A stretch of 35,441 bases of DNA, taken from assembly GCA_003242955.1 (NCBI GenBank), contig QJPH01000154.1, positions 1 through 35,441 on the forward strand. Direction: 5' to 3'. Shown piece after piece: positions 6,974-13,709 of this stretch. The stretch's first letter is position 1; every line of letters begins with the position of its first letter. Source of the DNA: Candidatus Methylumidiphilus alinenensis. GTDB lineage: Bacteria > Pseudomonadota > Gammaproteobacteria > Methylococcales > Methylococcaceae. The position numbers and the translations under genes were made by a program. Under the pieces are notes generated by a model that was not told the DNA's origin, made no database searches, and saw only the letters and a list, made by a program, of their open reading frames with translations.

Positions 6974-8251
6974 ATGACCGACAGCAGCAGCCAAATTTGG
7001 GAAAACGTCCCTAGCCCATTTTGCGGCATCAGTTCCGACGATCTAAAGATTCAGGCTACCGGCAACGTGATTAAGGTGTTGGAAAACGGCGATGCCGTCA
7101 CCCGAGCCGGCTTCGAGCAAGTGCCCACCGACACTCAACCCCGCATAGGCGGCAAAAATGCTACGCTGGATCAAGCAGTCGCGGCGGCGGCTGGCTATTT
7201 GCGCGATGCCCGGCTACCGCTGTTCGGCGGTTTCGGCACCGATGTCAACGACACCCGTGCCGCTTTGTCTTTGGCTGACCGGTGTGGCGCAGTTTTGGAC
7301 CAGGCCCGCGCCGAAGGCGGTTTGCGCAATCTGCTGGTGCTGTCCGATACCGGCTGGGTCGCCTGCACCTTGGCCGAATTGAAAAACCGCGCCGAAGTGG
7401 TGGTCGTGTTTGGAAGTGACATTGAAGCCGATTTCCCTAGGTTCTTTGAACGTTTTGTCTGGAATAAAGAAACCCTGTTCGGACAAGATACCAGTCAGCG
7501 CGAAATTATTTACATAGGCCGGACCCCTGCCGGTGATGCCTCCACCTCTCCTAGTGGACGCAAGGCGCAAGTGCTGCCTTGCAGTGCCGAAAGCTACCCG
7601 GAAGTCGCCGCCGCCTTAAATGCCTTGGCGCGAGGCGTAAGCTTGCAAGCCGAATCCATTGGCGGCATTGCAGTGACCGAGTTGCAAACCGTCATCGACA
7701 AACTGAAGGCGGCGAGTTACAGCGTAGTGACTTGGGCCGCCGGTCATTTGAACTATGCCCATGCCGAATTGACCGTGCAGCAACTTTGCCAAGCCGTCGT
7801 CGCCTTAAACAAGTCAGGTGCCACCCGCTCTGCCGTATTACCCTTGGGTGGGCAAGACGGCGACCGCACCGCCAGCCAAGTCTTCGCCTGGCAAACCGGC
7901 TATCCGACCCGCATCAGCTATGCGCGTGGCTATCCTGAGTATGACCCCTATCACAACTCTACCAGTCGGCTGCTGGCGAATGGCGAGGCTGATGTGCTGG
8001 TGTGGGTTGCAACGATTAATGCCAAGCAGACACCGCCTGTCGCATCCATTCCGACCATTGTAATAGGCCGGTCTGGCATGGTGTTCGAGAAAGAGCCGGA
8101 GGTGTTCATTCCTGTTGGCGCACCGGGCATCGACCACGCGGGGCATATGTATCGTTGTGACAATGTGGTGTGCTTGCCTTTGCGCAAGCTAAGGGATTCG
8201 GGGTTGACTAGCGGGGCGGAGGTGTTGAAGGGGATTGAGGGGGTGTTGTGA
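6974..8251 (+). CDS. fhcB: Formylmethanofuran dehydrogenase subunit B homologue (FhcB)
   Basis: FhcB is the FwdB-like subunit of the formyltransferase/hydrolase complex that releases formate from formyl-H4MPT in methylotrophs, as part of formaldehyde oxidation. The 425-residue protein shows the N-terminal block around SPFCGISSDDL (residues 15-25), where archaeal FwdB carries cysteines for an Fe-S cluster and only one Cys remains here, and the family features GGFGTDVNDTRAAL and GYPEYDPYHNS. This fits methylotroph FhcB proteins, which are thought not to work as redox subunits. AGGGAAGG gives a strong ribosome binding site. In methylotroph clusters fhcB is normally followed at once by fhcA; here a 3.8-kb insert intervenes. 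Its stop lies at the left edge of that insert. Confidence 0.92.
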   Translation: MTDSSSQIWENVPSPFCGISSDDLKIQATGNVIKVLENGDAVTRAGFEQVPTDTQPRIGGKNATLDQAVAAAAGYLRDARLPLFGGFGTDVNDTRAALSLADRCGAVLDQARAEGGLRNLLVLSDTGWVACTLAELKNRAEVVVVFGSDIEADFPRFFERFVWNKETLFGQDTSQREIIYIGRTPAGDASTSPSGRKAQVLPCSAESYPEVAAALNALARGVSLQAESIGGIAVTELQTVIDKLKAASYSVVTWAAGHLNYAHAELTVQQLCQAVVALNKSGATRSAVLPLGGQDGDRTASQVFAWQTGYPTRISYARGYPEYDPYHNSTSRLLANGEADVLVWVATINAKQTPPVASIPTIVIGRSGMVFEKEPEVFIPVGAPGIDHAGHMYRCDNVVCLPLRKLRDSGLTSGAEVLKGIEGVL

Positions 8252-8263
8252 AAAAACTCAACA
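8251..8263. repeat. Left direct repeat (candidate target-site duplication) of the fhcB/fhcA insert
   Basis: AAAAAACTCAACA here and AAAGAACTCAACA at 12061-12073 match at 12 of 13 positions. They lie just after the fhcB stop and just before the ribosome binding site of fhcA. Joining fhcB to fhcA through a single copy recreates a tight, normal fhcB-fhcA spacer of about 36 bp with AGGAG ahead of the fhcA ATG. Confidence 0.65.
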
Positions 8264-8299
8264 TTGAACAAGTAACCAGATTTAAGGCAAAAACTTAAG

Positions 8300-9433
8300 G
8301 TGTCTACTTTTCGTGCAAAAATAGGTGTACCCACTCCAGATTGTCCAATCACATTATTGGAGTTCGATTATCAAAATCCACGTCTTCTCACAGGCGATGA
8401 TTTGGCATCGCATGATGAAAAGAGCATTATTTGCTCGTTGCGTGATATTGCTGCCTTAGATGAGTTGATTCAGTCAATTTGCGCGAATGGCTATCTCAAT
8501 CTTGAACCGTTGATTGTATCGAGTGATAGCGAGTTTGGCCCCTTCACTGTCTTGGAAGGAAATCGGCGTCTTGCCTCAATTAGGCTAATTCAGAATAGAA
8601 GCCTTGCTAAAGATTGCAGGATATCAATGCCGTCCAGCATTCCTCAGTCTACGCTAGATTCTATTGAGAAAGTCAGCATCTGGCGGGTTAAGGAACGTTC
8701 CGATGCCCAGGCATTTATTGGTTTTAAGCATATTAATGGCCCTCATCGGTGGGAATCCTATGCCAAAGCACGGTTTGTCGCTGACTGGTACAAAAGGGAC
8801 AAGGATAAAGGATTGACGATTGAATCCATAGCAAGACAACTTGGCGATGATAATGACACCATTCGATCCTATATTGGTGCGATTTTGATTCTGGAACAGG
8901 CCGAAGAAGAACGCCTGTTTAGCATCAAAGACCGTTCCAAACGCGGCCCTTTCGGGTTTTCCCATTTATATACCGCTTTAGGTAGAAAGGAATACCAAGA
9001 GTTTTTGAATTTGCCAAGAGGCTGGAATGCCAATCCAAGCGATCACCCCATAGATAAGACAAAAAGCAAACACCTTAAGGAAGTTTTGACATACATTTAT
9101 GGATCAAAGCAAGACGACAAACCTTCCCTTATCAAGAGCCAAAATCCTGATCTTAAACACATTGGCGAAGTTTTGGCCCATCCTGTCGCATTGGAAAAAC
9201 TTAGAGGTGGCTCCGACCTCGAAACAGCACATAACGAAACGCGTAAGCCACATGAGATTTTCAGTGATGCATTGGTGCAAGCGAGCTTGAAGATTGATGC
9301 CGTAGTTGGCTTGTTAGCAAAATATGATGGCTCAACTGCCTTGTTGTCAATCGCAAAAGAACTGTCTGAAAAGTCAGAAATGCTCATGTTAACCATGAAA
9401 CGTAAGCATGAAAAGTCTTTGAAGAAGCAATAA
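8300..9433 (+). CDS. ParB-like domain protein, first gene of a candidate defence operon
   Basis: The 377-residue protein has a ParB/sulfiredoxin-like N-terminal domain: the LDELIQSICANGYLNLEPL stretch, then the phosphate-binding core VLEGNRRLASIRLI (about residues 82-95), which corresponds to the GxRR box of ParB. A helix-turn-helix-like segment follows (GLTIESIARQLGDDNDTIRSYI). The C-terminal third is helical and lysine-rich and is not recognised. The start is GTG at 8300; no better in-frame ATG precedes the domain. It lies 18 bp upstream of the next gene, and no parA is near, so a plasmid or chromosome partition role is unlikely. ParB-fold proteins also occur in DNA-modification defence systems such as Dnd (DndB). 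A DNA-sensing or nuclease role alongside the methyltransferase is inferred. Confidence 0.8.
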   Translation: MSTFRAKIGVPTPDCPITLLEFDYQNPRLLTGDDLASHDEKSIICSLRDIAALDELIQSICANGYLNLEPLIVSSDSEFGPFTVLEGNRRLASIRLIQNRSLAKDCRISMPSSIPQSTLDSIEKVSIWRVKERSDAQAFIGFKHINGPHRWESYAKARFVADWYKRDKDKGLTIESIARQLGDDNDTIRSYIGAILILEQAEEERLFSIKDRSKRGPFGFSHLYTALGRKEYQEFLNLPRGWNANPSDHPIDKTKSKHLKEVLTYIYGSKQDDKPSLIKSQNPDLKHIGEVLAHPVALEKLRGGSDLETAHNETRKPHEIFSDALVQASLKIDAVVGLLAKYDGSTALLSIAKELSEKSEMLMLTMKRKHEKSLKKQ

Positions 9434-9451
9434 GACAAATGGAAAGTATTA

Positions 9452-10468
9452 ATGATTGAAACTCCTCTAGCTATACTCCCTTTGGATTGTGGAAGCCAAG
9501 AAATTTGTGATTGGTTTGAGCTATATACTTTATCCTCAGAATATTATGCCGTTAGTTTGCATGAACTAGCTCGTGTTTGGGATAAACGCAAGAACTCAGA
9601 AGATGCTGATTTTGAGGGAAATACAGTGGAGGCTCAGGACTTTCTGGAAGAAATCTATCAAGAAATCCGAGATAGAATGGAACAATTGGGCGAATGTTAT
9701 CCTTTTCAATTCAGTGACAATGATCAAGAATTGATATTTTTGAATGATGGTTTAAATGATGGATCAAATATCTATATTTTTTGTTTGTTTATATCGCATA
9801 CAAACAATAAAGTAATATTTGATAAGCCTTCATTTTATATCATTAACAATCGAGTCAGAGACCTCTTCCAAGCTTGTGCCACTTGGGCTGCTGCTGGTCT
9901 GGTTGAGGGTCATTCGTACTCTTTTGGGTTTCCACGCCCCGATCAATCGGGCTTTCTAGAGAAACTTACTATCATCTACCAACGTTTTGGTGATGGGAAG
10001 GTCATGGACACACCATTACCTGGTGTTTCTAAAAGTCCGAAAGATGAAGAAATTGATGTCATCTCATGGCATCCAAGAGCAGATTCCGCCCCTGGAACAT
10101 ATTATATTCTAGGGCAAGTAGCTTCAGGCAATAATTGGCTTGATAAGAGCATAAAGGGAGCTATTGAAGCTTTTCATGGAAACTGGCTATCTCCTATACC
10201 AGCAAGTACCCCCATTTCGGCCATGTTCATCCCCTTTGTTATTGAGCCAGTAAAAAACGAGAATATTAGCGATAGACTTGGTGTTTTAACCAGACGTTTA
10301 GGCCATATCTACCATAGGCTCCTTATTCCCGCTCTAGCAAGAAAAGGACTTGAACTCGGTAGAAACCGTAAACACTTGGTGATTGAGCGAATCGATGATG
10401 CCGTTGAAATATCAAACTGGATTGAAAAGGTAATTAATGACTTTAGGGGTTCTTGTGTGTATTCTTAA
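9452..10468 (+). CDS. Unrecognised protein with a PD-(D/E)XK-like core, candidate nuclease
   Basis: A 338-residue soluble protein that I cannot assign to a named family. The central part has an acidic-hydrophobic strand, DEEIDVISWHP, then a glycine turn and the strand YYILGQVASGNNWLDKS (about residues 197-235). This D...Q-x-x...K layout resembles PD-(D/E)XK nucleases in which Gln replaces the catalytic acid, followed by a conserved-looking NW..K. The N-terminal half is acidic and helical; the C-terminus is basic and helical. It sits 18 bp after the ParB-like gene and overlaps the methyltransferase gene by 32 bp, so translation is probably coupled. The position between a DNA-binding protein and a DNA methylase suggests the restriction component. 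That is inference from one weak motif and context. Confidence 0.75.
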   Translation: MIETPLAILPLDCGSQEICDWFELYTLSSEYYAVSLHELARVWDKRKNSEDADFEGNTVEAQDFLEEIYQEIRDRMEQLGECYPFQFSDNDQELIFLNDGLNDGSNIYIFCLFISHTNNKVIFDKPSFYIINNRVRDLFQACATWAAAGLVEGHSYSFGFPRPDQSGFLEKLTIIYQRFGDGKVMDTPLPGVSKSPKDEEIDVISWHPRADSAPGTYYILGQVASGNNWLDKSIKGAIEAFHGNWLSPIPASTPISAMFIPFVIEPVKNENISDRLGVLTRRLGHIYHRLLIPALARKGLELGRNRKHLVIERIDDAVEISNWIEKVINDFRGSCVYS

Positions 10469-11372
10469 CAAAATAACAAGCCCCTTGCGCTATCCGGGAA
10501 GCAAGGCCACTTTTTTGAATGTTGTTCTTCAGTTTATTGAAGTCCATGGTTTAAAAGGAAGGGAAATTGTAGAGCCTTATGCGGGAAGCGGCATCGTGTC
10601 CCTGTCACTTGTTGCAAATAATCTCGTCAGCCATGCAACGCTTGTGGAGAGAGACCCACTGCTCTACTCGTTCTGGAAAGCGGTTTTTGAACATACGGAT
10701 ATTTTGCTGTCTTCTATAGAAGAAATTAATGTCAACATGGATACTTGGCACGAACTCAGAGTCCTTCTTAAACATGAAATACCAATAGATGAACTTATTG
10801 CTGATTTAGCGTTGGCATGCCTATTTTTTAACAGAACAAATTTTTCAGGCGTTCTACACAGCGGCCCTATTGGTGGAAAATCTCAGAACTCTGATTATAA
10901 ATTAGACTGTCGATTTAATAAAAAAGAAATAATATCTAGGATTCGACAAATTTCTTTACTTGGAGATAGAGTTTCAGTGAGGTTTGATGATGCGTTTGAT
11001 TTTCTGCAAAAGGCAAATACTCAGAACAATGAAAATCGCTATTTCTACATTGATCCACCCTATTTTAAGCAAGGACGAAAGCTTTATAGGTACTATTACA
11101 AAGTAATCGATCACAAAAGATTACATGATATTCTTTCGGTTGCAACGTTTCCATGGCTACTCAGCTACGATAAACACGAGTTTATAGAATTGCTCTATGA
11201 TAGCTTTCCCCAAGTTAATCAGAGCTTTAGATATATGACTAGGACACCAAAAAAGGAAAATGAATTAGTAGTCACTAACATGGGAAGATCAATTTTAGCT
11301 GCTCAATCTCAGCCCTCTTTGAGACCTGTTACAACCTTACGTGATGTGTCTATCATGCTAATAGAACCATAG
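10437..11372 (+). CDS. D12-class DNA adenine-N6 methyltransferase (Dam/DpnM-like)
   Basis: D12-class enzymes methylate adenine N6 in short, often palindromic sites. The 311-residue protein shows the motifs in alpha-type order: LRYPGSK (motif X, residues 17-23), EPYAGSGIVSLSL (motif I, SAM binding, about residue 46), and YIDPPYF (motif IV, the catalytic DPPY, about residue 203). FFNRTNFSG is also typical of the class. The ATG at 10437 has AAAGG at good spacing and lies inside the end of the preceding gene, a 32-bp overlap. Low G+C marks it as acquired. In context it is the modification arm of a possible restriction-modification-like module; an orphan or regulatory methylase is the alternative. 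Confidence 0.93.
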   Translation: MTLGVLVCILNKITSPLRYPGSKATFLNVVLQFIEVHGLKGREIVEPYAGSGIVSLSLVANNLVSHATLVERDPLLYSFWKAVFEHTDILLSSIEEINVNMDTWHELRVLLKHEIPIDELIADLALACLFFNRTNFSGVLHSGPIGGKSQNSDYKLDCRFNKKEIISRIRQISLLGDRVSVRFDDAFDFLQKANTQNNENRYFYIDPPYFKQGRKLYRYYYKVIDHKRLHDILSVATFPWLLSYDKHEFIELLYDSFPQVNQSFRYMTRTPKKENELVVTNMGRSILAAQSQPSLRPVTTLRDVSIMLIEP

Positions 11373-11380
11373 ACAGAACC

Positions 11381-11983
11381 ATGGCAATCAACCCAAAAAC
11401 CTATTGGATCAGCGAAGAAGACTATCTCCAAAGCGAGCTAATCAGCGAAACCAAGCATGAATACATGGATGGACAGGTTTATGCGATGACCGGTGCTAGC
11501 CGCAATCACGAGCGAATAGCGGGTAATGTGTTTGGCGAAATTAGGAATTGGTTAAAAGGCCGTCCATGTGAACCCTTTGCTTCAGATATGAAAGTCAAAG
11601 TCGGGAATAATTTCTTCTACCCCGATGCGATGGTCGTCTGTGACGAGCAAAACCCGCATGAATATTACACAGACTGCCCGGTTCTGATCGTCGAAGTTTT
11701 GTCGAAGAATACTCGCCGTAAAGATGAAACCACCAAGCGGCTGGCTTATTTTAATATCTTTACCTTGCAAGAATATGTCTTGATCGAGCAAGATATTGTC
11801 GATGTCGAGCTATGCAGGCGTAGCAAAGGCTGGGTGTCGGAGCATTTTTTCATGGGCGACGAGGTGTGCTTTGAATCCATCGGTTTGACACTCACCGTGG
11901 AGGAAATTTATGCGAGGGTCGATAACGAGGATGTGAAAACCTATTTTGAAGAAAAACGTATGGCTTTAGAACAAAGCGTCTAA
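11381..11983 (+). CDS. Uma2 family (DUF820) PD-(D/E)XK endonuclease-like protein
   Basis: The 200-residue protein has the full Uma2/DUF820 layout: the start EEDYLQSELISETKHEYMDG, GASRNHERIAGNV, then PDAMVVCDEQ with the catalytic acidic residue and PVLIVEVLSKNTRRKDETTKRLAYF with the second catalytic Glu and following Lys, then LQEYVLIEQD. The fold is restriction-endonuclease-like; the biological role of the family is unsettled, although members are abundant in cyanobacteria and some methanotrophs. It begins 8 bp after the methyltransferase stop. It may be a passenger rather than part of the three-gene system, since Uma2 genes usually stand alone. A tail fragment of a second copy lies at 13728-13757. 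Confidence 0.9.
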   Translation: MAINPKTYWISEEDYLQSELISETKHEYMDGQVYAMTGASRNHERIAGNVFGEIRNWLKGRPCEPFASDMKVKVGNNFFYPDAMVVCDEQNPHEYYTDCPVLIVEVLSKNTRRKDETTKRLAYFNIFTLQEYVLIEQDIVDVELCRRSKGWVSEHFFMGDEVCFESIGLTLTVEEIYARVDNEDVKTYFEEKRMALEQSV

Positions 11984-11985
11984 AA

Positions 11986-12026
11986 CCGGAATGACGGAAT
12001 AGCTGAGACATCTCGCTAATCAGGAA
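11986..12026. repeat. Fragment of the 171-bp miniature element (end sequence)
   Basis: This ~41-bp stretch, starting CCGGAATGACGGAATAGCTG and ending CTAATCAGGAA, matches the reverse complement of 24776-24816, the left end of the inverted-repeat element at 24775-24945, with a few differences. It lies just after the Uma2 stop at the right side of the fhcB/fhcA insert. Confidence 0.65.
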
Positions 12027-12060
12027 ACCGAATATGCCCAATAGCCAACGAATATAATAT

Positions 12061-12073
12061 AAAGAACTCAACA
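12061..12073. repeat. Right direct repeat of the fhcB/fhcA insert
   Basis: AAAGAACTCAACA matches 8251-8263 at 12 of 13 positions. It is followed directly by GGAGAGCC, so with its last base it forms the AGGAG ribosome binding site of the fhcA start, as expected if this is the original fhcB-fhcA junction. Confidence 0.65.
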
Positions 12074-12087
12074 GGAGAGCCACTACC

Positions 12088-12555
12088 ATGCTAACCAAAC
12101 TCACCGGCGGTAAAGTCTATGACCCCGCCCACGGCATCAACGGCGAAATCCGCGATATTTGGATTCGGGATGGTCGCATCGTCGCCAATCCGGGCGACAA
12201 CCAGCCCACCGAAGAATACGATTTGCTCGGTAAAATCGTCATGGCCGGGGCCATCGACATGCACACCCATATTGGCGGAGGCAAAGTCACCATTGCCCGG
12301 AACCTGTTGCCGGAGGATCATCGTGGCGATTCGGTCGAACGTGAAGGCTTGATGCGGGCCGGTTGCGGCCATGCCGTGCCATCCACGCTGACCACCGGCT
12401 ACCGTTACGCGGAAATGGGTTACACGGCGGGCTTCGAACCGGCGGTGCTGCCGATCAATGCCCGTCAGGCCCACCATGAAATGGCCGATGTGCCATTGAT
12501 GGACGTGGGCGGTTTTGCTCGTTCCCAAGCTCCCGCTTGGGAATGGGGTTTTTGA
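12088..12555 (+). pseudogene. fhcA: fhcA, formylmethanofuran dehydrogenase subunit A, 3'-truncated
   Basis: FhcA is the zinc-dependent amidohydrolase-like subunit that hydrolyses formylmethanofuran-type intermediates; family members are about 550 residues long. Here only 155 codons are open. The N-terminus is convincing: LTGGKVYDPAHGINGE, the metal-ligand motif DMHTHIGGGKV (about residues 57-67) and NARQAHHEMADVPLMDVGG. Homology stops near codon 144, at about 12515-12520, and the last dozen residues are encoded by a palindromic repeat. The active-site residues beyond the first His-x-His are missing, so this copy cannot be functional. A good AGGAG site shows the start is original. fhcD and fhcC, expected next, are absent from the window. 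Confidence 0.88.
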
Positions 12556-12627
12556 AGCTCCAGCTTCCCGAAGAACGACCAAGCAGGAGCTTGCAAGATA
12601 AGGGTTCCCAAGCTGGAGCTTGGGAAC
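12521..12627. repeat. Palindromic repeat cluster at the fhcA breakpoint
   Basis: Two near-perfect hairpins built on GTTCCCAAGCT...AGCTTGGGAAC lie at 12521-12544 and 12604-12627, with a related GAAGCTCCAGCTTC hairpin between. The first hairpin is read through as the last codons of the fhcA fragment. Similar but not identical hairpins occur at 17658-17755 and 21141-21191. Confidence 0.75.
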
Positions 12628-12642
12628 CAGTCAAATAACCTG

Positions 12643-12741: not shown

Positions 12742-13302
12742 ATGTTTTCTGAACAACGCGTAGCACAAATGGCAGCTTACCTCTTGCAAAAAAGAGGTGG
12801 AAGAATGGCTTATATCAAGCTCCTGAAACTGCTCTATCTGGCAGATCGGGAGGCCATGGGGAAATGGGGCGAATCAATCAGCGGCGATTGTTTTGTTTCA
12901 ATGCCGCATGGGCCTGTCTTGTCACAAACATGCGACCTCATTCGTGGTTTTGGCTCTTCAATTGAAATGGGGTGGGATTTCTGGATTAAAGACGAAGACA
13001 ATTATGAAGTGTCTTTACGGCAACCGGCATCTAACCGCGAATGCTTTGATGAATTGAGCGATGCCGAACTTGGGATATTGGATGGTGTTTTTGAAAAATT
13101 TGGCCGGATGAGGCGATTTGAGATTGTAAAATATACTCATGACCATTGTGCCGAATGGGAAGACCCGCATGGCAGTTCATTTCCAATTAAACCAGAGGCA
13201 GTTTTTCGTGCTATGGAAACCAAAGAAGAAAGGGTTCAAGTGTTGCTTAGGGAGCATAGAAAACTGGTTGATCTTGACTTGGCTAGAAGCGCGTTGAGAT
13301 GA
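12742..13302 (+). CDS. Panacea-domain (SocA-like, DUF4065) antitoxin
   Basis: The 186-residue protein has the Panacea/SocA-like layout: a helical start with AAYLLQKRGGRMAYIKLLKLLYLADREAM, the SGDCFVSMPHGPVLSQTCDLIRG block with the conserved PHGPV, and a late helix DAELGILDGVFEKFG. Panacea proteins neutralise unrelated toxins encoded next door, sometimes by helping proteolysis (SocA) and often by direct binding. The next gene overlaps it by ATGA, the usual bicistronic arrangement, and encodes the likely toxin. A possible extended -10 lies about 90 bp upstream. The family call is strong; the antitoxin role is inferred from family and context. Confidence 0.85.
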   Translation: MFSEQRVAQMAAYLLQKRGGRMAYIKLLKLLYLADREAMGKWGESISGDCFVSMPHGPVLSQTCDLIRGFGSSIEMGWDFWIKDEDNYEVSLRQPASNRECFDELSDAELGILDGVFEKFGRMRRFEIVKYTHDHCAEWEDPHGSSFPIKPEAVFRAMETKEERVQVLLREHRKLVDLDLARSALR

Positions 13303-13709
13303 GCCTGTGTGTACCTTTTCGCAAAGGTTCGCTATTAATTCCAACAGGGTCATGCCAACATCTTCACATAATTTGTAACGACCCTGTTTTCTACCCAGCG
13401 TTGGCGAAGGAGTGCTTTTTGGCGGTTAATATCAGCAGCATTGATCCAATCATACAATACGACACAACCTGTATATTAAAAGATGGAGACCATCCTTTCA
13501 TCAAGCATGATAGCTATGTGTATTACAGGAAAGCAGATATATTCGGCGCAACGACTACCGAAAGGATGGTTGCAGAAGGTGATATATCATTACATGATCC
13601 TTTCTGTGATGTGGTTTTTGAAAAAATACTGGCTGGATTTTACCAATCAAATGAAGTCAGACCAAAGATTTTGAAATTTTTTCAGAAATATTGTACCCAT
13701 TCGGAGTGA
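13299..13709 (+). CDS. Probable toxin partner of the Panacea antitoxin
   Basis: A 136-residue protein whose ATG overlaps the Panacea stop by 4 bp. Visible features are GSLLIPTGSCQHLHIICND at the N-terminus, the strand FLAVNISSIDP, and CILKDGDHPFIKHDSYVYYRKADI, which looks like a conserved core in a small beta-rich protein; helical residues end the protein (FEKILAGFYQS...). The opening resembles the start of PemK/MazF-like small beta-barrel toxins, but I cannot assign a named family. No frameshift is needed and the length looks complete. The toxin call rests on gene order. Confidence 0.7.
   Translation: MSLCVPFRKGSLLIPTGSCQHLHIICNDPVFYPALAKECFLAVNISSIDPIIQYDTTCILKDGDHPFIKHDSYVYYRKADIFGATTTERMVAEGDISLHDPFCDVVFEKILAGFYQSNEVRPKILKFFQKYCTHSE

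Follow-up and report, generated by a model that had tools for sequence, protein, structure and literature searches.

A ParB-like protein, a predicted nuclease and an exchangeable DNA methylase in a candidate phage-derived defence cassette of Candidatus Methylumidiphilus alinenensis

The window analysed here is a stretch of 35,441 nucleotides from Candidatus Methylumidiphilus alinenensis (contig QJPH01000154.1 of GCA_003242955.1, a draft assembly of 597 contigs), in which three adjacent genes encode a ParB-like protein (A), a predicted nuclease (B) and a D12-class N6-adenine DNA methyltransferase (C). The explanation we favour, at about even confidence, is a phage-derived, restriction-modification-like DNA defence cassette with A-B as its constant core, where A would act as a clamp, B as a nuclease and the methylase as a self-mark. 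This explanation is supported by the genes themselves and how consistently they are linked, by the folds predicted for the proteins, by the location in prophage hotspots and by the interchange of methylase families; from these we infer the steps of clamp loading, cutting, self-marking and defence. Because of the linkage, the hotspots and the folds, DNA-directed defence is the likeliest function.

Recurrence of the A-B pair and its predicted proteins

The survey covered 107 loci, consisting of the window stretch and 106 of 121 loci, with 15 duplicates or overlaps left out. Of the 102 B-family open reading frames (ORFs), 100 have A immediately upstream, which indicates that the two genes are linked beyond chance; the two B ORFs without A are pieces of a single broken B in Microvirga, at a locus with an intact D12 ORF. 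The original prediction had described a three-gene unit, of which the linkage stands, but the constant unit is A-B and the methylase is variable. The viral loci, which are the best 80 of 145 confirmed and include near-copies, hold 81 A ORFs: 75 are in A-B pairs with an adjacent methylase, three belong to pairs cut off at a contig end, and the last three have no B in reach, two of them being at a contig end and one being half of a split A. Leaving aside the pairs cut off by a contig edge, all 75 viral A-B pairs have an adjoining methylase, which bears out the expectation that the three families co-occur elsewhere as a recurrent cassette. Among 21 A-B pairs from phage records, plasmids and genomes chosen by similarity, 11 have a full methylase, two have a shortened one and eight have none adjacent (two of these eight share one loss, and two are on one scaffold). 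The methylase is adjacent in the window and in three later genome loci (L148–L150). On a faecal phage scaffold (L024, 4794–9633), two A-B pairs face each other, and a C5 methylase lies upstream of one of them at a distance of about 2 kb. Beyond the genus, two Nitrosomonas drafts carry the closest complete trios, with A 71–73% and B 64–66% identical. B is rare in genomes at large, at 4 of 249, 3 of 369 and 5 of 398 (the genome of the window is counted each time, and the genomes are partly shared), and it was found in 6 of 61 genomes of relatives.

The trio of phage Wphi, used as a query, matched 139 of 5,426 complete Escherichia coli genomes (about 2.6%), of which 103 hold at least 80% of the trio; the other 36 matches are 90–95% identical, and those listed cover the methylase only. 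The trio of phage 12474III also matched 139 E. coli genomes, 36 of them in full, and its set is complementary to the Wphi set among the matches listed in both. The methylase is annotated in every E. coli match listed (40, 40 and 60 of 139). In E. coli, the trio occupies the part of P2-like prophages that is bounded by the replication endonuclease gene and the portal gene, and two small genes adjoin it on one side; this interval of P2 prophages is described as a defence hotspot in the text of PMC9519451. Phage Wphi itself (gp98-gp96-mth, AY135739) carries the same kind of trio with a convergent C5 methylase, but it was deposited as two unnamed ORFs and a methylase, and its A and B are 25% and 15% identical to those of the window. 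Of three disrupted E. coli copies examined, one has an IS5 where B begins, another has its B broken into two reading frames and the third carries an IS1 in A, and the methylase is intact in each; with three copies, the sparing of the methylase is not significant. Among the matches listed, two more disruptions were found, one a split B and the other an IS2 in the stretch. Breaks in A or B beside an intact methylase fit restriction-modification, and they are too few to weigh.

A matches the phage family phrog_3694 over residues 17–373, nearly its full length, with an E-value of 2.8e-81. It has no Pfam match, and its score against the NCBIfam ParB model is far below the cut-off of that model. The PADLOC profile PD-Lambda-5_A matches residues 16–189 only (E = 1.2e-16), the best match spanning profile positions 8–186 of 466. 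As predicted with AlphaFold (AF2), the model of A has a mean predicted local distance difference test (pLDDT) score of 94.1, and a Foldseek search with this model found 24 KorB, ParB and Noc chains below 1e-3, the best of which was KorB (8qa9, E = 2.5e-6), followed by ParB and Noc. The predicted architecture consists of an N-terminal fold of the ParB/KorB/Noc type, a helix-turn-helix and a long helical C-terminus. At the position of the GERR motif of ParB, A has EGNRR, where E86, G87, N88 and R90 are invariant and R89 is nearly so in 53 sequences. Judging from the model, A has a ParB/Srx-type fold with the nucleotide-binding motif of the ParB CTPase family; it differs from ParB, KorB and Noc in its C-terminus, in its low NCBIfam score and in the absence of an annotated ParA next to the phage trios.

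The best phage-family match of B is phrog_14650 (E = 1.3e-38), and all the phage families matched are of unknown function. B of the window matches no family in Pfam, NCBIfam or PADLOC; a search with 57 B-family members found no Pfam family at 0.01, and the PADLOC matches were three stray ones, each to a single member. A tblastn search of B against phage records found no match, although B was later recovered from Wphi, 12474III and D14A by profile searches. The AF2 model of B has a pLDDT of 92.3 and a predicted template modelling score (pTM) of 0.92. With this model, the top Foldseek match was MspJI (4f0p, probability 0.98, TM-score only 0.25), followed by N.BspD6I (E = 0.05) and FokI (E = 0.3); nothing was found at 1e-3 among solved structures, nor below 1e-3 in the viral structure library. 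The sequence profile of B aligns independently onto the SSGDGGVDFIG...VVLGQAK region of MspJI, with the D202/Q222 core of B aligned to GDGGVDFIG...LGQAK. E23, R75, P84, D202 and R289 are invariant in 70 of 70 family members, Q222 is kept in 69 and K232 in 65 of the 70, and W229 is also conserved; D202 and Q222 are on neighbouring strands of the model. Each line is weak alone, and the weak structure match and the weak independent profile match taken together make it probable that B is a nuclease with a PD-(D/E)XK core whose lysine is displaced. The nuclease-like core claimed for the middle gene in the original prediction thus gains from the AF2 and Foldseek results and the MspJI alignment, which point to a restriction-nuclease fold and not to a housekeeping protein. 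MspJI is a modification-dependent restriction enzyme. B differs from it in lacking the lysine of QAK and in being paired with A.

Exchange of the methylase classes

C matches the Pfam D12 family (PF02086) with an E-value of 2.3e-18 over profile positions 1–242 of 253, and the PADLOC profile PD-Lambda-5_B over residues 12–286. The methylases beside the viral A-B pairs belong to three unrelated families, D12, C5 and N6/N4. In the 75 viral trios, a D12 enzyme is convergent in 22, on the same strand downstream in 6 and upstream in 3; a C5 enzyme is convergent in 37 and on the same strand in 3; and an N6/N4-type enzyme is on the same strand in 4. These sets were obtained with our own iterative profiles, and Pfam was run on one C5 enzyme (PF00145), one N6/N4 enzyme (PF01555) and the D12 enzyme of the window. 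Along a tree of 68 A proteins, which was built by a quick method and has several long branches, the methylase class changes at least five times; if arrangement is counted as well, there are at least 11 changes. The two features track the tree, with 19 changes over 8 groups, compared to 40.2 in shuffles.

The methylases of the two E. coli trio types, Wphi and 12474III, are 97.8% identical as proteins, with A and B 32% and 25% identical, and overall methylases that are 91–98% identical accompany A proteins of about 30% and B proteins of about 22% identity. The converse was not found, that is, no pair with A and B both at least 50% identical had methylases less than 45% identical. The helix-turn-helix of A was considered as the reader of the site of the methylase and gained no support, because the identity of its recognition helix (residues 184–196 by our own assignment) does not track that of the methylase. 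In pairs of C5 loci with A 15–45% identical, the helix identity is 29, 33, 29 and 27% at methylase identities of <50, 50–70, 70–90 and ≥90%, respectively, for 123, 283, 211 and 19 pairs that are not independent. Within A lineages of the C5 set, the helix is well kept, at 84–92% for A identities of 45–70%. The C5 methylase of Wphi (mth, L022, 2331–3266) matches the DruM profile of Druantia with an E-value of 1e-110, hinting that C5 methylases of this kind may be shared between unrelated defence systems.

Layout of the locus and the fhcB-fhcA cargo site

The features of the locus are listed in Table 1. The gene positions, common direction, spacing and overlap given in the original prediction agree exactly with the ORF call, where A and B are separated by 18 bp (9434–9451) and B and C overlap by 32 bp (10437–10468). 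The core motifs named there, LEGNRRLASIRL, LRYPGSK, EPYAGSG and DPPY, were all found in the translated ORFs, and the low G+C was likewise recovered, at 0.431, 0.394 and 0.379 for A, B and C, compared to 0.577 for the upstream fhcB and about 0.51 for the flanks. A scan for promoters and terminators was uninformative, since it found 9 promoter-like sites where 9.5 would be expected and 4 terminator-like ones where 3.4 would be.

Table 1. Positions of the three genes and of the inserted cassette in the window.
Feature	Positions	Strand	Evidence
Gene A, ParB-like protein, 377 amino acids, GTG start	8300–9433	+	ORF call; phrog_3694; AF2 model; Foldseek; N-terminal match to PD-Lambda-5_A
Gene B, predicted PD-(D/E)XK-type nuclease, 338 amino acids	9452–10468	+	ORF call; phrog_14650; AF2; Foldseek; hidden Markov model (HMM) alignment; conservation
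Gene C, D12-class N6-adenine DNA methyltransferase, 311 amino acids	10437–11372	+	PF02086; PADLOC PD-Lambda-5_B
Inserted low-G+C cassette, between fhcB and the Uma2-fhcA side	8252–11380		G+C; fhcB-fhcA spacing in relatives; Uma2 in same-genus genomes

The cassette sits between fhcB (6974–8251) and fhcA (start 12088), which we take to be genes of formylmethanofuran dehydrogenase subunits; in Pfam, fhcB has no match and the start of fhcA matches amidohydrolase. In 18 fhcB loci of 17 relatives, the gap between fhcB and fhcA is 17–100 bp in seven and 449–847 bp in four, and the remaining seven have no fhcA within the examined stretch, three of them being from same-genus genomes. Because the two genes are only 17–100 bp apart in those seven loci, the cassette is an insertion. 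The Uma2 gene (11381–11983) was considered as a fourth member and rejected, because it adjoins fhcA in three same-genus genomes with other cargo; by this comparison, Uma2 is a resident of the site and A-B(-C) one of several cargoes. In the genome G002, the cargo upstream of Uma2 comprises a GmrSD-type restriction gene, a HEPN gene and a SocA-like gene; G006 has a PIN gene and a borderline Cas2-like match at the site, and G004 has unidentified ORFs. The fhcB-fhcA interval (8252–12087 in the window; L172–L174) is therefore a genus-level cargo hotspot with defence-like contents between two C1-metabolism genes. With the described P2 hotspot and the GmrSD, HEPN, SocA-like and PIN genes of this evident cargo site, the trio does lie in defence-island settings.

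Downstream of the cassette, a SocA/Panacea-domain gene is followed by a gene for 136 amino acids without a Pfam match (12742–13709). A similar SocA/Panacea and small-gene pair is among the fhcB-fhcA cargo in G002 (L173, 2950–3917), and the two genes may form a unit. The fhcA of the window (12088–12635) is cut at about 12517 by an inverted-repeat element of about 112 bp with arms at 12513–12543 and 12605–12635. A complete fhcA on another contig of the same genome (G000:C24), downstream of what is presumably a metK-like gene, shares 540 bp at 92% with the window copy, and the cut copy would represent a rearrangement or an assembly join.

Proposed mechanism, rival explanations and meaning

In the proposed mechanism, A would be a DNA clamp of the ParB type, probably one that depends on a nucleotide, and would load through its helix-turn-helix, and B would be a PD-(D/E)XK nuclease recruited by A to the A-bound DNA. 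The adjoining methylase, here a D12 adenine enzyme and elsewhere a C5 or N6/N4 enzyme, would mark the resident DNA, and A-B would normally act on unmarked incoming DNA. Since A-B persists without a methylase in some lineages, the methylase is probably no strict antidote; it may give target specificity or be a conditional guard.

Several observations weigh against this restriction-modification-like mechanism. The match of B to MspJI is weak both in Foldseek (2.8e-3) and in the HMM alignment (0.12), and the usual lysine two residues past Q222 is absent in B of the window, the residue there being other than lysine in 20 of 21 aligned members. Among 40 C5 pairs with methylases at least 90% identical, a count that includes near-copies, 19 have A less than 50% identical (mean identity 32% for A and 22% for B). 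Considering the exchange of three families, the decoupled divergence of methylase and A-B and the lack of a signal in the recognition helix, the sequences give no sign that A-B reads the site that the methylase protects. In addition, three lineages of the methanotroph genus of the window, all represented by draft genomes, have an intact A-B but no longer a whole methylase. G001 has the order fhcB-A-B-fhcA without a methylase in between, and G003 likewise has A-B-fhcA, its contig starting inside A. In both, the alignment stops a few codons into C and resumes in a decayed Uma2 at the same break, so that the two genomes must have diverged after the loss. Since then, A (164 codons) has acquired five synonymous and three nonsynonymous changes and B (338 codons) seven and none. 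Only 3 of these 15 changes are nonsynonymous, compared to about 78% expected without selection (P of about 3e-6), and by this count A-B is under purifying selection after the loss in this one testable case. A second A-B pair in the genome of the window (G000:C19) has an N6/N4 methylase reduced to codons 11–86 and 354–377, and the pair in G004 has a methylase scrap of codons 147–166; as neither remnant contains the other, there were, together with the scar shared by G001 and G003, at least three separate losses. The B proteins of these loci keep the conserved core residues; among the 21 aligned, L031, another locus without a methylase, lacks K232. That selection continued on A-B once the methylase was gone suggests that the pair can be tolerated, and does something useful, by itself, provided that no other methylase, perhaps one of a different family with the same specificity, takes over the protection from elsewhere in the genome: G003, a 97%-complete draft, has no PF02086 match at E ≤ 0.001 and one N6/N4-type enzyme, 32% identical, and G001 has three D12 matches elsewhere, one over the whole domain. 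These losses speak against the original prediction in its simplest form, with the methylase protecting and the other two proteins sensing and cutting.

In a more far-reaching version, A-B would be a new kind of self/non-self DNA surveillance unit, in which the ParB clamp would deliver the nuclease, and self would be signalled by the methylase itself, or by its presence on the DNA, rather than by a sequence that A-B recognises; the methylase, whether an adenine, C5-cytosine or N6/N4 enzyme, would then be an interchangeable "password" and some function could outlast it. We hold this version only tentatively. About equally doubtful is the possibility that A-B is a stand-alone nuclease or abortive-infection module blind to the methylase mark, with the methylase as separate cargo for anti-restriction or regulation. 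The losses and the purifying selection after one of them agree with it, as do the eight of 21 pairs from other collections without an adjacent methylase and the modification-dependent MspJI as the nearest solved structure of B; a methylase beside all 75 testable viral pairs, in several arrangements, is hard to reconcile with an unrelated passenger, and so are methylase classes and arrangements that follow the A tree.

The cassette as a prophage partition or gene-regulation module, where A would be a KorB-like regulator, C an epigenetic switch and B an accessory nuclease, is the least probable explanation, and we consider it very unlikely. A is most like KorB and ParB and its recognition helix is well kept within lineages; however, the annotations of the trios L021–L023 show no ParA next to A, A-B also occurs in chromosomal genomes and defence-like cargo sites, and a strictly linked nuclease-like partner would be unexpected. 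Somewhat less improbable, yet still unlikely, is a subtype of PD-Lambda-5 that works in the same way and has its effector on a separate gene. PD-Lambda-5 is described in the text of Vassallo et al. 2022 (PMC9519451) as a compacted prophage version of a restriction-modification plus abortive-infection system. The N-terminus of A and the D12 enzyme C match its A and B profiles (1.2e-16 and 6e-84), and two-gene loci of a long ParB (ORFs of 513 and 522 amino acids, annotated slightly shorter) and a D12 methylase turned up in the same searches. All but one of the PD-Lambda-5_A profiles that matched have 428–613 positions, whereas only about the first 190 residues of A match. PD-Lambda-5 has no B protein, and its PADLOC methylase profile is of the D12 type, whereas B stands between A and C in the window and a C5 or N6/N4 enzyme replaces D12 in 44 of the 75 viral trios. 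Plain PD-Lambda-5 was rejected, because A matches at its N-terminus only and a search of the two-gene loci L037 and L041 with the profile of B gave no match. In Vibrio phage ValB1MD-2 (L038, 3132–5568), a PD-Lambda-5-like locus has its long ParB as two shorter ORFs before a D12 methylase.

The favoured cassette shares with type II restriction-modification a DNA methylase beside a probable PD-(D/E)XK nuclease, but it has a linked ParB-like partner, combines three unrelated methylase families with one A-B family, tolerates methylase loss in some hosts and carries near-identical methylases with very divergent A-B. Fusions of a ParB fold and a methyltransferase in phages and prophages likewise link the two; in the text of PMC12704722, these are one-protein fusions studied for nucleotide binding, with no mention of a B-like partner. 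By sequence comparison, the parts are of known kinds, and the way they are arranged resembles both PD-Lambda-5 and type II restriction-modification, but defining features of PD-Lambda-5 are missing. The literature search found no name for the trio; supplements and figures lay outside it, so the DefensePredictor or P2-hotspot tables may list the trio. The claim that the gene combination is not a named system accordingly holds for the whole set, but the ParB and D12 half resembles PD-Lambda-5, and the trio was already deposited, unnamed, in Wphi.

If the cassette defends, it would be a widespread prophage system, with two types in E. coli found in 139 of 5,426 genomes, that is so far unnamed, perhaps because the middle gene B matches no Pfam, NCBIfam or PADLOC model. 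The favoured explanation, if true, would bring a ParB clamp into restriction-type immunity, and one nuclease unit that accepts three methylase families would raise the question of how such units recognise self.

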